From NCBI RefSeq assembly GCF_002217795.2, contig NZ_AP018823.1:4464001-4528000 (forward strand): a stretch of 64,000 nt of DNA. Reading direction: 5' to 3'. The notes under the pieces were generated by a model that worked only from the letters and a program-made list of their open reading frames with translations, was not told where the DNA came from and ran no database searches. Numbering within the stretch: position 1 is the stretch's first letter; every line of letters begins with the position of its first letter. The DNA is from Aquitalea magnusonii. GTDB taxonomy: Bacteria; Pseudomonadota; Gammaproteobacteria; Burkholderiales; Chromobacteriaceae. The position numbers and the translations under genes are program-made. Of the stretch, positions 27,831 to 57,023 are shown piece by piece.

Positions 27831-29207
27831 ATGAACTTTGCTGATCGACACATCGCGGTAGTGGGGCTGGGAGGCTCGGGGCTGGCTGCCGCGCGCTATC
27901 TGGCTGCCCACGGCGCACGCGTGGTGGTGGCCGACAGCAAGCCCGCGCCCGAGCGCGTGGCCGAACTGCAGCGCCATGTGCCGCATGCCGAGCTGCGCGT
28001 TGGTGCGTTTGATGCCAGCACCTTTGCCGGCGTCGACATGCTGGTGCTCAGCCCTGGCGTGCCGCTGAAAAACCCGGCGGTGGATGCTTTCCGTCGCGCC
28101 GGTGGTGAAGTGGTGGGCGATGTGGAACTGCTGGCCCGCGCCATCAGGGGCAATGGCAGCAAGGTGATTGCCATTACCGGTTCCAATGGCAAGACCACCG
28201 TCACCAGTCTGGTCGGCCATCTGTGCCAGCAGGCCGGGCTGGATACCATCGTGGCCGGCAATATCGGTCTGGCGGTACTGGAAGCCCTGCTGGAACGCGA
28301 ACAGTCCGGCAAGCAGCCGGACGTGTGGGTGCTGGAGTTGTCCAGCTTCCAACTGGAAACCACGTACAGCCTCGCCGCCGATGCCGCCACCGTGCTGAAT
28401 ATTTCCGAAGACCATCTGGACCGCTACAACGACCTGCTGGACTACGCCCACGCCAAGACCGCCGTGTTCAACGGCCAGGGCGTGCAGGTGCTGAACCGCG
28501 ACGACATCCTGGCCCCGGCCATGGTGCGCCCCGGCCATGTGGTCAAATGGTTCTCGCTCAAGCAGCCGGTGGAATACAGCCTCACTCAGCAGGATGGCCA
28601 ATACTGGCTCAGCGCACAGGGCAAGGCCGTGCTGCCGCAAGCCAGCCTGCAACTGCAAGGCCTGCACAATGCCGCCAACGCCCTGGCCGCGCTGGCCTTG
28701 TGCGACAGCATCGGGCTGGACCGCACTGCCCTGCTGCAAGGCTTGCAAAGCTTTGAGGGCCTGGCCCACCGCGTGGAGCTGGTGGACGAATTTGACGGCA
28801 TCGCCTGGATTGACGATTCCAAGGGCACCAATGTCGGCGCTACCGAGGCCGCCCTCAATGGCATGACCCGCAAGGTGGTGCTGATAGCAGGTGGCGATGG
28901 CAAGGGCCAGGATTTCAGCCCGCTGGCACCGGCTTGCCAGCGCATTGCCCGCGCCGTATTGCTGATTGGCCGCGATGCCGGCCGTATCCGTGCCGCACTG
29001 GCCGACAGCGGCGTTGCGCTGCACGACTATGCCACGCTGGAAGAAGCCACCCGCGCCGCCGCCGCGCTGGCCCAGCCGGGTGATGTGGTGCTGCTGTCGC
29101 CCGCCTGCGCCAGCCTGGACATGTTCCGCAACTACGCCCATCGCGCCCAGGTGTTTATCGACACCGTGGCGCAGATCAAGGCCGCGACCGGAAAGGGGCA
29201 GCCATGA
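27831..29207 (+). CDS. murD: UDP-MurNAc-L-alanine:D-glutamate ligase MurD
   Basis: A 458-residue cytoplasmic Mur ligase adding D-glutamate to UDP-MurNAc-L-Ala. A Rossmann-like start ([15 protein letters not shown]) binds the uracil nucleotide, GSNGKTT (117-123) binds ATP, and ELSSFQLE with [10 protein letters not shown] marks the central domain. Its stop overlaps the ftsW start by 4 bp. Confidence 0.97.
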
Positions 29208-30361
29208 TCGTGCATTCGGCGCGTCGCTACACCGCCATCAAACCGTTTGACGAGGCATTGGCCTGGGCCTTGGCCCTGCTGCTGTCCATCAGTCTGGTGA
29301 TGGTGTATTCGGCGTCGATTGCCTATGCCGAGGCCGATGTGGCCACGCAAAACCGCTATTTCTACCTGATCCGCCACATCATTTTCATGGTGATCGGCCT
29401 TTCCGCATCCTACGTGATGTTCCAGGTACCTACCCGCATCTGGCAGAAATACGCCGGCAAGTTGTTCCTGCTGGGCATCGTACTGCTGGTGCTGGTGCTG
29501 ATTCCCGGTATTGGCCGGGTGGTGAACGGTTCGCGCCGCTGGATCAACCTGTTTGTGCTCAACCTGCAGCCATCGGAAATCATGAAGTTCGCCACGGTGA
29601 TTTATGCCGCCGACTACACCGTGCGCAAAACCCACAAGCTGCACAGCCTGAAAGAAGGCTTTGCCCCGATGTTTGCCGCCATGGTGATGGTGGCCTTCCT
29701 GTTGCTGCGCGAGCCGGACTTCGGTGCCTTGATGGTGGTGATGTCCATTGCCATGGGCGTGCTGTTCCTCGGCGGCATCAATATGCGCATTTTCTCCGGT
29801 CTGGCGGTGATGGCGGCGGTGGCCATCGTGCTGCTGATCATCTCCTCGCCATACCGGCTCAAGCGGGTGCTGGGCTTTATGGACCCGTGGGACGACCCCT
29901 ATGGCAAGGGCTACCAGCTATCACACTCGCTGATCGCCATTGGCCGTGGCGAGTGGTATGGCGTGGGGCTGGGCTCCAGCATTGAAAAGCTGTTCTACCT
30001 GCCCGAGGCGCACACCGACTTCATCATGGCGGTGATTTCGGAAGAATTCGGCTTTGTCGGCATCTGCGTGGTGATCGGCCTGTATGCCTGGGTGGTGCGG
30101 CGCGCGTTTCACATCGGCGTGGAATCGAAAAAGCTGGAACGGTTCTTCCAGGCGCTGGTGGCGCAGGGCATGGGCATCTGGCTGGGGATTCAGGTGTTTT
30201 TCAACATCGGCGTGAACATGGGCCTGTTGCCCACCAAGGGCCTGACCCTGCCGCTGATGTCGTTTGGTGGTTCGGCCATGTTGATGAACCTCATCGCCAT
30301 GGCCGTGCTGCTGCGGGTGGACTATGAAAACCGCCGCATCATGCGCGGCTACAAAGTGTAG
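29204..30361 (+). CDS. ftsW: Septal peptidoglycan glycosyltransferase FtsW
   Basis: A 385-residue SEDS protein with about ten membrane helices that polymerises lipid II at the septum with FtsI. Marks include [21 protein letters not shown], the [19 protein letters not shown] loop and the C-terminal [19 protein letters not shown]. Start overlaps murD. The 3' end is odd: the stop codon lies in a perfect 12-bp hairpin (30342-30368) that is also the beginning of a tandem repeat array, and a diverged second copy of the last nine codons occurs at 30674-30700 directly before murG. Confidence 0.96.
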
Positions 30362-30368
30362 CCGCGCA
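30342..30368 (+). repeat. Perfect hairpin enclosing the ftsW stop codon
   Basis: TGCGCGGCTACA and TGTAGCCGCGCA form a 12-bp stem with loop AAG; the UAG stop is in the right arm. There is no T-run. Nine base pairs of the same stem recur at the start of the second and third tandem repeat units (near 30459 and 30572). Confidence 0.8.
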
Positions 30369-30673
30369 GGACCAGCGCCGCAGGTGCGTGAGGGCGCAAG
30401 CCCGGCGGTGGCGGTTTCTGCGAGGCCAAAGGCCGAAGCTAAAACCGGAGCGAAGGGCGGCTACAAAGTGTAGCCGCGCAGGACAAGCGCCGACAGGCGC
30501 GTGAGGGCGCAAGCCCGGTGGTGGCGGTTTCTGCGAGGCCAAAGGCCGAAGCTAAAACCGGAGCGAAGGGCGGCTACAAAGTGTAGCCGCGCAGGACCAG
30601 CGCCGCAGGTGCGTGAGGGCGCAAGCCCGGTGGTGGCGGTTTCTGCGAGGCCGCAGGACGAAGCAAAAATCAG
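30347..30673 (+). repeat. Tandem repeat array of about 112 bp units between ftsW and murG
   Basis: Three units start with GGCTACAAAGTGTAGCCGCG at 30347, 30459 and 30572. Units 1 and 2 (112 and 113 bp) differ at four places; unit 3 agrees for about 80 bp and then diverges (GCAGGACGAAGC instead of AAAGGCCGAAGC) and is shorter. Each unit holds the GGCTACA/TGTAGCC stem, a GGGC/GCCC stem, and a CGGTTT/AAACCG stem enclosing GGCC/GGCC. The array begins inside the last codons of ftsW and ends in a second ftsW tail. Neighbouring dcw genes overlap or sit within a few dozen bases, so this 338-bp spacer is exceptional. Confidence 0.88.
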
Positions 30674-30700
30674 CGCATCATGCGCGGTTACAAGGTTTGA
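30674..30700 (+). pseudogene. Diverged duplicate of the ftsW 3' end ([12 protein letters not shown])
   Basis: These 27 bases read Arg-Ile-Met-Arg-Gly-Tyr-Lys-Val-stop, identical in protein to the real ftsW end at 30335-30361 but differing at 5 of 27 bases, including a different stop (TGA for TAG). Its TGA shares its last base with the murG ATG (TGATG). The simplest reading is that this is the original ftsW/murG junction, left behind when repeat DNA was inserted upstream. Confidence 0.75.
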
Positions 30701-31794
30701 TGAAGATGACGAACAGAACGGTCATGGTAATGGCAGCAGGTACGGGTGGACACATCGTCCCCGGCCTTGCCGTGGCCAAAGCGCTGCAAGCGCGTGGCTG
30801 GAAAGTGGTGTGGCTGGGTACCGAGCGCGGCATGGAAAACAAGCTGGTACCGCCCACCGGCATTCCGCTGGAGCGGTTGGCGTTTCATGGCGTGCGCGGC
30901 AAGGGCTTGCTGGGCTCGCTCAAGGGTGTGCTGCAGTTGTGCGGCGCTTTTGTACGCTCGGCACAACTGTTGCTGCGTCATCGGCCGGATGTGGTATTGG
31001 GCATGGGCGGCTATGTCTGCCTGCCTGGCGGCGTGGTGAGTGGCCTGTTATGGAAGCCGCTGGTACTGGTGAATGCCGATGCCAGCCTGCTGTTGAGCAA
31101 CAAGGCCTTGCTGCCGTTTGCCCGCAAGCTGGTGTGCGGTTTTGACGGCAGCGCCGCCAAGAGCGGGGCCAAGGCGCTGGTGACGGGTAACCCGGTACGG
31201 CAGGAAATCGAAGCCCTGCCGGCTCCGGCACAGCGCATGGCCGGTCGCAGCGGCCCGCTGCGCGTGCTGGTAGTGGGTGGGAGCCTGGGGGCGCGGGTGC
31301 TGAACCAGACCCTGCCGCAGGCGCTGGCACTGCTGCAGCAGGAACAGCGCCCGCAGCTGACCCACCAAACTGGTGAGGCCAACTTTGCCGAGGTGCAGGC
31401 AGCGTACCGGGCCGCCGGACTGGGACAGGATGTGACGCTGTTGCCGTTTATCGATGACATGCCCAGCCGGCTGGCCGACTGCGACCTGATCATCTGCCGC
31501 GCCGGTGCCATTACGGTAAGCGAGCTGTGCGCAGCAGGCGTGGCCAGCATTCTGGTGCCGCTGGTGGTGTCCACCACGGCGCACCAGCGCGACAACGCCA
31601 AGTGGATGGCAGCGGCAGGCGCGGCGATTCATTTGCCGCAGCAGGAAATGACAGCACAAAAGCTGGCAGACGTGCTGGCTGGTCTTGACCGGCCCCGTCT
31701 GCTGGAACTTGCCAGTCAGGCACATGCATTGGCCAGACCGGGGGCAGCGTCCCGAGTGGCCGATGTGTGTGAAGCACTGGCAGACGAACAGTAA
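30700..31794 (+). CDS. murG: Lipid II synthase MurG (GlcNAc transferase)
   Basis: A 364-residue GT-B glycosyltransferase at the inner face of the membrane that adds GlcNAc to lipid I. The glycine-rich [13 protein letters not shown] near the start and the donor-site [13 protein letters not shown] and [14 protein letters not shown] stretches are typical. The ATG at 30700 has AAGG 4 bases upstream and overlaps the duplicate ftsW stop; an ATG at 30706 is also possible. The frame is open upstream to a GTG at 30613 inside repeat unit 3, which would add 29 residues; this is thought unlikely. Confidence 0.95.
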
Positions 31795-54989: not shown

Positions 54990-57023
54990 ATGTCCCACCT
55001 TCCCGATTCCCACCTGTGGCTGGAAAGCCTGGATGATCCCGCTGTCGATACCTGGGTTGCCGCACAGAACAAGCGCACCCAGGCCGTACTGGATGCCGAT
55101 GAACGCTATGCGCCCTTGCGCCAGGAAATCCTCGATCATCTGCGCGATACCCGGCAGATTCCCTTCTTTTCCGAACACGCCGGCTGGCTGTACAACTTTC
55201 ATCAGGATGAACACCACCCGCGCGGCATTTACCGCCGCACCACGCTGGCGGACTATCAGGCGGCCAGCCAGCAATGGCATACCGTGCTGGACGTGGATGC
55301 CGTTGCCGCCGCCGCCGGCAAGGATTGGTATCTGGATGGGGTGGCGCACTGCACGGTGCAGCCCTCCCGTGTGCTGGTGCATTTGAGTGAGGGCGGCGGC
55401 GATGCCAGTCTGGCTTGGGAGTACGATCTGGAAACCGCCAGTTGGGTGGAGCAGGGCTTTCGTTTTCCGCACGGCAAAAACCACATTGCCTGGCGCGACC
55501 CGGACAGCGTGCTGGTATGCCCCGGCTGGAAGGGCGCGCCACTGAGCCGTTCCGGCTACCCGCGCGAAGTGTGGCTGGTGGAACGCGGGGCCGACGGCCA
55601 GCATCAATGGCAGCAGCTATTTGTAGCGGACCAAGATGCCATGATGGTGGCCGCCTGGCGTTATCTGGACGGTCCGGATGGCTGGCTGGACCTGATCGAA
55701 GCGGCTGACGGCTTTTACAGCAAGACTTACCACCTGATCGACGCTGATTTGCAGACCCATCCGCTGCCGTTGCCGCCTAAGGCGGATATCGAGGCTTATC
55801 TGCACGGCCAGTTCATCGTCAAGTTGGCGGAAGACTGGTGCTGGCAGGGAGAAACCCATGCCGCCGGCAGCCTGTTGGCGGTGCCGCTGGCCTGCCTGCT
55901 GGGCGATGCGGGTGGCATCCAGTTGCTGGTGGCTCCGGCAGCCAGGCTGGCGGTGGAGTCGGTGGAAACCACCCGTAGCAGCGTGGTGGTGAACCTGATC
56001 GACAATGTGCGCAGTCGCCTGCAAGCCTTCGACTGGCAAGGCGGTAGCTGGCACGCGCGCAGCCTGCCGGTGCCCGACAGCGGGGTGATCGAATTTGCCG
56101 ACCAGCCCTGGAACAGCGATGTGCTGTGCTACAGCTTCAGCGACTTCCTCACCCCCACCGGCCTGTACCGGCTGAATGTGGCTACCGGTGAGCAGGACTG
56201 CCTGCGCCAGCAGCCCGCCGCATTCGATGCCAGCGGCTTTGTGGCCGAGCAATGCTGGGCCACCGCGTCCGATGGTGTGGACATTCCCTATTTCGTGGTG
56301 CGCGCTCGCGATACGGTATTTGATGGCCAAACCCCGACGCTGTTGTACGGCTATGGCGGTTTTGAAGTGCCGATGATGCCCTACTACGTGGAAAACTTCG
56401 GCGCGCACTGGCTGGAAAAGGGCGGTGCCTTTGTGCTGGCCTGCATTCGTGGTGGCGGCGAGTTTGGCCCCGGCTGGCATCAGGCCGCGCAGGGCATCAA
56501 GCGCCCGGTGTCGTTTGATGATTTTTGCAGCGTGGCCGAGGCGCTGATCGGCAGCGGCCTCACCCGCCCGGACAAGCTGGGCATAGAAGGCGGCAGCAAT
56601 GGCGGCCTGCTGGTGGCCGCCTGCATGGTACGTCGCCCAGAGTTGTTCAAGGCCGTGGTGTGCGAGGTGCCGCTGCTGGACATGCTGCGCTACACCGAGC
56701 TGCTGGCCGGTGCCAGTTGGATAGACGAATACGGCGACCCGGCCGACCCGCAACAGGCGGCAGCCTTGCAGGCGTATTCGCCCTATCACCAACTGCAAGC
56801 CGCTGCGCGCTACCCGCTGCCCTTGTTCACCACCAGCACGCGCGACGACCGGGTACACCCCGGCCATGCGCGCAAGATGGTGGCGCAGATGCAGGCACTG
56901 GGGCATCCGGCCTTGTTGATGGAAACCGATGCCGGTGGCCATACCGGCAATGCCGGTCAGGAGCAGACCGCAGCGGAACTGGCGCGGGTACTGGTGTACC
57001 TGTATCAGCAACTGATGGATTAA
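54990..57023 (+). CDS. Prolyl oligopeptidase family serine protease (S9A)
   Basis: A 677-residue enzyme: N-terminal seven-bladed propeller and C-terminal hydrolase domain. The triad is clear: Ser536 (GGSNGG), Asp620 (TRDDRVHP) and His651 (AGGHTG), close to mammalian POP (554/641/680). It should cut short peptides after proline in the cytoplasm; no signal peptide is seen. ATG 54990 is chosen for the family start; a frame open to 54951 has no family character. Confidence 0.92.
   Translation: MSHLPDSHLWLESLDDPAVDTWVAAQNKRTQAVLDADERYAPLRQEILDHLRDTRQIPFFSEHAGWLYNFHQDEHHPRGIYRRTTLADYQAASQQWHTVLDVDAVAAAAGKDWYLDGVAHCTVQPSRVLVHLSEGGGDASLAWEYDLETASWVEQGFRFPHGKNHIAWRDPDSVLVCPGWKGAPLSRSGYPREVWLVERGADGQHQWQQLFVADQDAMMVAAWRYLDGPDGWLDLIEAADGFYSKTYHLIDADLQTHPLPLPPKADIEAYLHGQFIVKLAEDWCWQGETHAAGSLLAVPLACLLGDAGGIQLLVAPAARLAVESVETTRSSVVVNLIDNVRSRLQAFDWQGGSWHARSLPVPDSGVIEFADQPWNSDVLCYSFSDFLTPTGLYRLNVATGEQDCLRQQPAAFDASGFVAEQCWATASDGVDIPYFVVRARDTVFDGQTPTLLYGYGGFEVPMMPYYVENFGAHWLEKGGAFVLACIRGGGEFGPGWHQAAQGIKRPVSFDDFCSVAEALIGSGLTRPDKLGIEGGSNGGLLVAACMVRRPELFKAVVCEVPLLDMLRYTELLAGASWIDEYGDPADPQQAAALQAYSPYHQLQAAARYPLPLFTTSTRDDRVHPGHARKMVAQMQALGHPALLMETDAGGHTGNAGQEQTAAELARVLVYLYQQLMD

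Follow-up and report, generated by a model that had tools for sequence, protein, structure and literature searches.

REP and REPIN sequences are GC-rich intercistronic hairpins dispersed in many copies. Some integrative elements enter a gene, restore its 3' end with an equivalent, displace the old end downstream and accrete in tandem. MIRUs and other intercistronic VNTRs vary in tandem number. The review PMC12548453 describes MIRUs as repetitive, apparently mobile sequences found in many mycobacteria.

We analysed a 64,000-nucleotide stretch of the Aquitalea magnusonii genome (the window), in which a tandemly repeated unit separates ftsW from murG. Like MIRUs and other intercistronic VNTRs, as PMC12548453 describes them, the unit is a short operon repeat at a gene start, tolerated since translation of the downstream gene survives. 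As with MIRUs, it is seated at an operon stop/start junction, from the ftsW stop to the TGATG of murG; unlike them, it is found at a single junction, includes the 3' end of the preceding gene and has a fold that covaries. Like a variable-number tandem repeat, it stands in head-to-tail copies whose number differs between genomes, with 0 to 3 full units among nine Aquitalea junctions, compared between species. REPIN-like inverted repeats are even present in the ftsW-murG junction of some Chromobacterium, but the unit, unlike REPs and REPINs, has one site and uses host codons as arms. As in integrative elements, the 3' end of ftsW is replaced by a unit-borne equivalent, the tail is displaced downstream and units stand in tandem; in contrast to these elements, the unit measures 110-125 bp as a rule, with no integrase seen and no larger relative at 58 junctions. 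Finally, it shares with the cis-regulatory structured RNAs of Rfam a conserved fold, compensatory changes and a place in an operon, and differs from them in overlapping a coding end and a stop codon, in being tandem in some genomes and in having no family match in the loci tested (0 Rfam matches at E up to 1 in window positions 30000-31000 and the loci of six relatives). No description of this element was found among the publication titles searched. What lies here is a family-wide, locus-bound, covarying module that carries a gene end, rather than a local repeat insertion.

The features of the junction are collected in Table 1. Tandem Repeats Finder delimited an array at 30345-30669 with a period of 113, 2.9 copies and 94% matches, and a repeat search gave spacings of 112 and 113. 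Both bear out the three units (112, 113 and 100 bp as cut) that a sequence-only reading of the window had seen starting inside the last ftsW codons. The second ftsW tail that it reported is also there: the last nine codons including the stop (30335-30361) recur at 30674-30700 with the same peptide, 22 of 27 nucleotides identical (5 mismatches), and the TGA of this copy (30698-30700) overlaps the murG ATG (30700-30702). Besides itself and the distal copy, the 27-nt tail matched no place with 6 mismatches or fewer on either strand of the window. Both copies can be read in a 33-nt frame, giving 10 residues each. The supposed 12-bp palindrome at the ftsW end does consist of 12-bp arms (b and b' in Table 1), which form an inverted repeat round a 3-nt loop. 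The FtsW of the window is 100% identical to that of Aquitalea pelogenes. An assembly artefact, which the earlier reading had named as a way in which it could fail, left no sign: the genome is one 4.85-Mb contig and other Aquitalea have 1, 2 or 3 units. The murG reading frame is open upstream to 30613, through unit 3, so that automatic annotation may start murG too early; MurG would have 393 aa from the GTG at 30613 versus 364 aa from 30700, that is, 29 extra residues. Between 30200 and 30800 of the window, no intrinsic terminator (stem-loop and T run) was found on the plus strand and two such patterns were found on the minus strand. The minus-strand sequence of each ftsW tail (30333-30349 and 30673-30685) fits a simple intrinsic-terminator pattern of a stem and then a T run. 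The window has a second tandem repeat at 55858-55916, with a period of 25, 2.5 copies and 75% matches.

Table 1. Features of the ftsW-murG junction in the window (positions counted from its first nucleotide).
Feature	Position	Strand	Remarks
ftsW	29204..30361	+	from 30326 on, the codons also form the 5' part of fold module 1
Tandem unit 1 (112 bp)	30345..30456	+	repeat search, Tandem Repeats Finder
Tandem unit 2 (113 bp)	30457..30569	+	repeat search, Tandem Repeats Finder
Tandem unit 3 (100 bp)	30570..30669	+	repeat search, Tandem Repeats Finder
Distal ftsW tail, unit-free type	30668..30700	+	holds the AAGG before murG and the TGA of TGATG
murG	30700..31794	+	ATG at 30700 or 30706
Fold module 1	30326..30445	+	ftsW tail to end of hairpin e plus UAAAAC; R1 141.7 bits (L002:1927-2046)
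Arm a (ftsW codons)	30328..30337	+	pairs with a' 30408-30417
Arm b (ftsW codons)	30342..30353	+	pairs with b'
Arm b'	30357..30368	+	ftsW stop codon 30359-30361 and first non-coding bases
Hairpin c	30375..30387	+	4/5 pairs changed on both sides across 30 units
Hairpin d	30392..30403	+	4/4 pairs changed on both sides
Arm a'	30408..30417	+	closes four-way junction with ftsW codons; prefers own tail
Hairpin e	30420..30439	+	GCGAG...CGAAGC frame; 4/6 pairs changed on both sides
Fold module 2	30440..30558	+	inner tail degenerate, GYKV* alone kept
Fold module 3	30553..30670	+	inner tail degenerate

Across 61 genomes of the family Chromobacteriaceae, 58 ftsW-murG junctions were read and classed by our own inspection: 26 hold at least one full unit, 5 have a unit that is partial or decayed, 10 are clean and short, with at most 32 nt to the murG motif, and 17 have another spacer. 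Since 27 of the 58 junctions are without a full or recognised partial unit, the unit is dispensable. Within Aquitalea, three units were found in the window genome (G000) and A. palustris, two in G004, one plus a fragment in A. magnusonii DSM 25134 and one each in A. pelogenes, G001 and LB_tupeE; A. aquatica has none (junction TTTGATGAAGATG) and one Aquitalea MAG has a different 61-nt spacer. Related units occupy the same junction in Aquitalea, Chromobacterium, Pseudogulbenkiania, Vogesella and Crenobacter, which is at odds with a single entry of repeat DNA in the window genome. Expansion from one insert is likewise too simple, because the array of P. subflava holds different unit types side by side. 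The tail beside ftsW, formerly taken for a plain duplicate, belongs to the unit, and it is the distal tail that preserves an old junction, as had been proposed: it is identical to A. aquatica for 40 nt counted from CGCATC.

On a tree of ftsW and murG without the tail (quick IQ-TREE), the presence or absence of units required 15 changes, 12 of them forced by starred branches, against an average of 19.6 for shuffled labels, so that presence is only weakly clustered; the final classes required 16 changes, or 7 when just full units and clean empty sites were counted, and such counts cannot separate gain from loss. A. aquatica, which is empty, is nested among unit carriers beside the three-unit A. 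palustris, and its state may thus be a clean loss. An ancestral order ftsW-TGATG-murG finds its counterpart in the unit-free junctions of relatives (the 10 clean ones, of which G006 (A. aquatica), G036 and G066 have TGATG), but with A. aquatica nested in this way an empty ancestor cannot be read from them. Overall, the observation that started this work is confirmed and the single-entry history attached to it is only partly supported.

Other sequences also occupy this spacer. REPIN-like inverted elements of the form GGCGGAAGCCC... / ...GGGCTTCCGCC, or variants, lie in it at four loci of Chromobacterium and a relative (L143, L154, L157 and L159). In G067 such elements follow directly on the GTAG made by the ftsW stop and the unit is decayed by them, and in G071 one follows the GTAG of the second tail. 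The Craterilacuibacter spacer (L165 / L076) contains a seven-base array, GGGAGTA, in 7 full copies and a partial one, of which a relative (L164, G017) has one copy. Four Vogesella loci (L020, L021, L025 and L167) carry the palindrome GCGGCCAACGTTGGCCGC in the murG leader, even where there is no unit (L021 and L167). The unit of Vogesella G079 (L168, 267-428) is about 40 nt longer than those of its relatives and contains an additional GCGAAGC motif; it may represent two units merged into one.

The unit folds over about 120 nt into a four-way junction, made of a closing stem a/a' and hairpins b, c and d, followed by hairpin e. Its 5' arms a and b are the last ftsW codons, and b', c, d, a' and e are non-coding; the 10-residue tail peptide at the unit start varies by L or V for I and F for Y. 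As a rule a further ftsW tail, often degenerate, comes after a unit; 6 of 30 unit-bearing genomes had no second tail within 13 mismatches of 33. Fold module 1 of the window has a z of -4.6, and none of 60 shuffles was as stable. Each of the 25 first units with a length of 95-130 nt beat all 60 of its dinucleotide shuffles (z -2.8 to -10.8), and inner units fold less well, with z between -1.7 and -4.4 for seven of eight and -9.0 for one. A covariance model was built from 15 units, and the 30 matches aligned to it (alignment A5) were used for counting; RNAalifold on a plain MAFFT alignment (A2) gave a poor consensus because the hairpins were out of register. In A5, 94.7% of 1067 cells were paired versus 79.6% in shuffles, 22 of 37 pairs had changed on both sides versus 12.3 in shuffles and 7 to 12 in slid controls, and the covariation score was 0.361 versus 0.113 shuffled and 0.027-0.080 slid; having been fitted to the model, the alignment favours that structure, and the shuffles take no account of relatedness, so that none of these figures is a probability. 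The stems that join coding to non-coding positions, a and b, taken alone had 10 of 22 pairs changed on both sides (54 cells) and a score of 0.292, versus 0.123 shuffled and 0.022-0.100 slid. The fold is thus conserved with covariation across genera, and the compensatory changes between species by which structured RNAs are recognised appear in this model-fitted alignment. Departures from Watson-Crick pairing on the gene strand were mostly G-U (41 cells, 17 pair columns) and not A-C (6 cells, 5 columns); although drawn from related sequences, this excess points to a fold at the RNA level. The greater stability of sense over antisense (33 of 33 units, mean -6.4) was dropped as support, because 400 coding windows of ftsW and murG were more biased (mean -8.2, 89% negative).

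The covariation bears directly on the possibility that the units are neutral debris without RNA function, left by a template switch that copied the tail backwards (b', a') and then forwards, followed by quasi-palindrome correction and slippage. An origin by template switching, as suggested in the sequence-only reading, is possible, since the tail recurs in b' and a' as its reverse complement, correctly ordered and followed by a forward tail (a b b' a' a b), but by itself it leaves the conserved hairpins c, d and e unexplained: these are not tail copies, yet keep their position and pairing across genera with different sequences. Debris would also fit the freely varying number and presence of units and the decay of inner tails in Aquitalea. 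It would not lead one to expect G-U above A-C, if DNA hairpins were being perfected, nor a steady body length: the distance from the stop to the start of the next tail is 80-89 nt in 21 of the 24 genomes with such a tail (exceptions G002, in which later tails alone matched, G020 and G012). We consider this explanation unlikely.

The pairing reaches into codon and stop-codon choice in ftsW. The codons CGA AGG stand in every one of the eight type-B tails (those of seven full-unit genomes and of the decayed G067), although CGA and AGG make up 1.7% and 3.4% of the Arg codons in ftsW and murG of type-B genomes. The type-B a' arm, where present, reads (T/C)CCTT(T/C)GGTT and that of Aquitalea G(C/T)GGCGGTT. 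After the final Tyr of ftsW, the stop is TAG in 21 of 21 unit-bearing genomes, in keeping with the TAG needed to pair with GGCTA; in unit-free genomes it is TAG in 9 of 24, TGA in 14 and TAA in 1. Arm a' pairs better with its own tail than with the next in 16 of the 17 first units scored for both, matching 10-12 positions versus 4-9, with one tie (G022, 5 and 5); three further first units had no scorable second tail, and four Vogesella and G020 were left out because the anchor failed. A bistable switch of a' between its own and the next tail was considered, and conservation was too low to claim it.

The last ten or so codons of ftsW differ as a block, far beyond their flanks, with the FtsW peptide kept. 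Three pairs of sister genomes show this. Between G063 (clean) and G067 (decayed unit), 4 of 300 positions differ in ftsW before the tail, 10 of 36 in the tail and 0 of 300 in murG; the corresponding figures are 9/300, 8/36 and 9/300 for P. ferrooxidans (G010) and P. subflava (G019), and 13/300, 8/36 and 23/300 for G061 and G064. Among 27 genomes (19 with units, 8 empty; pairs with upstream difference below 12%, which are not independent), the ratio of tail to upstream difference was 2.76 in mixed pairs (76), 0.98 where both genomes had units (71 pairs) and 0.70 where both were empty (21 pairs). Sites that tell G064 from Aquitalea G000 are of the Aquitalea type at 8 of 8 in the tail of C. alkanivorans (G061), while G061 follows G064 at 71 and Aquitalea at 10 of 85 sites in the last 600 nt of ftsW, and at 65 and 11 of 79 in the first 400 nt of murG. 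Donor-type sites in the tail number 8/8 in G061, 8/8 in G070, 7/8 in G019 and 9/10 in G067; the last 100 nt of ftsW before the tail hold 1, 0, 0 and 2 of them, beside 16, 17, 17 and 7 native-type sites. Over 33 nt, the second tail of P. subflava, which is now non-coding, is identical to the tail of ftsW in P. ferrooxidans.

Module a-a' and hairpin e do not share one history: between G061 and G064 the difference is 4.9% in the genes, 36% in a-a' and 0% in hairpin e, and between G061 and Aquitalea G000 it is 20.4% in the genes and 11% in a-a'. Type-A modules in three genera differ by 11-17% versus 20-29% in the genes, a-a' including the coding tail, and this closeness suggests exchange between species. 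Short-tract homologous recombination could have swapped whole junction alleles, with and without units, between species, the unit itself being inert. The 36-nt unit-free tail is identical in G032, G062 and G063, whose genes stand apart on the tree (a murG leader is common to G062 and G063, not G032), and G067 has an old decayed unit beside flanks near-identical to those of G063, both as such swaps would have it. But the flanks are mostly native, so that tracts would need to end near the tail every time, and the covariation is left unexplained; we regard this account as quite unlikely. Tail-to-tail recombination in a mixed array would also yield separate histories of a-a' and e.

The unit is confined to this one place in the searches made. 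The sequence-only reading had left room for a unit dispersed in the genome, and BLAST of the own genome found one site. Model R1 against 61 family genomes at E up to 0.05 gave 34 of 35 matches at ftsW-murG, the one in G082 being assigned to the junction by its murG; the match off the junction (G072) resembles an ordinary hairpin of the terminator kind. In 41 family genomes searched with R2 at E up to 1, 33 of 38 matches lay at the junction, and the other five had E between 0.054 and 0.535 (G006:C1, G011:C17, G003:C102, G000:C1:1749240 and G030:C12). When 399 genomes of the order were searched with R2 (E up to 0.01), seven Chromobacteriaceae accounted for 12 of the 14 matches; the remaining two (G046 and G224) had E 0.004, with about 4 chance matches expected. 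The hairpin e pattern was discarded as a dispersed repeat, as among its 21 matches in 61 genomes those off the junction were unlike the hairpin. A scan for other tail-duplicating zigzag loci over 864 kb (the window and 800 kb, about 18% of the genome) recovered the window locus; its other matches had spacings of at least 260 or lay in one CAC/CAT-rich stretch (L304, 180-225). A small mobile element (MITE-, satellite- or att-site-like) that inserts at the ftsW end alone, brings its own tail and is served by an enzyme in trans would account for tails replaced together with units, for type-A modules closer across three genera than their surrounding genes and for the several unit types in one P. 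subflava array, but we hold it to be very improbable, as the 61 family genomes gave no convincing copy at other sites, the window's unit had no match in phage records and matches at E 0.3 alone in plasmids, neither a recombinase nor anything larger was found at the 58 junctions (longest spacer to the murG motif 428 nt), and tail recombination could explain the swaps without an enzyme.

The end of the array that faces murG is kept almost unchanged in Aquitalea. Six of the seven unit-bearing Aquitalea share the 30 nt GCGCATC...TTTGATG exactly and the seventh departs from them at one base, although the stretch no longer encodes FtsW there; such conservation would follow if murG depends on it. Where relatives have no unit, the AAGG and the stop next to the murG start come from the ftsW tail itself. 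Inner tails are degenerate in Aquitalea. The keeping of a tail copy by murG is not family-wide, since the later tail has changed more, or stands further from murG, in Chromobacterium, Vogesella and others.

We infer a route for the tail swaps and a function for the fold as follows. Tails would act as direct repeats, between which recombination or replication slippage deletes, adds or exchanges units, always leaving ftsW with a working tail, while murG of Aquitalea would keep a tail copy with the Shine-Dalgarno-like AAGG and the TGATG start; the second tail would make the insert tolerable to both essential genes. Mixed arrays would sort differently in each lineage, and exchange between species would be a further route. 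In the mRNA, module 1 would fold at the ftsW stop codon once ribosomes leave the last codons. Structure immediately downstream of the upstream stop correlates negatively with coupling, according to PMC12548453. The folded module 1 may weaken translational coupling from ftsW to murG, unit-free relatives keeping the tight junction, and it may also mark a boundary of mRNA processing or stability. On balance we favour, at somewhat better than even confidence, an RNA module bound to this locus that carries the ftsW tail, expands, contracts and is exchanged by recombination between tails, and has as its probable effect the uncoupling of murG from ftsW.

In this fold, codons of a gene essential for cell division pair with non-coding DNA, with compensatory synonymous and stop-codon changes, and they differ as a block between sister genomes in which the rest of the gene has hardly changed. 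A bolder reading, which we put forward tentatively and would not yet bet on, is that of a gene-end cassette: an RNA-folding module that has the last codons and stop of ftsW in its own structure and is swapped, multiplied and lost together with them, across genera as well, which would give the 3' end of ftsW a history separate from the rest of the gene. If this is right, swapped gene ends have to be reckoned with in gene trees, codon-usage statistics and 'conserved C-termini', and the junction, with its 0, 1, 2 or 3 units and several fold types, would be a natural series for relating structure at a stop codon to the ratio of neighbouring proteins in a division and cell-wall operon.
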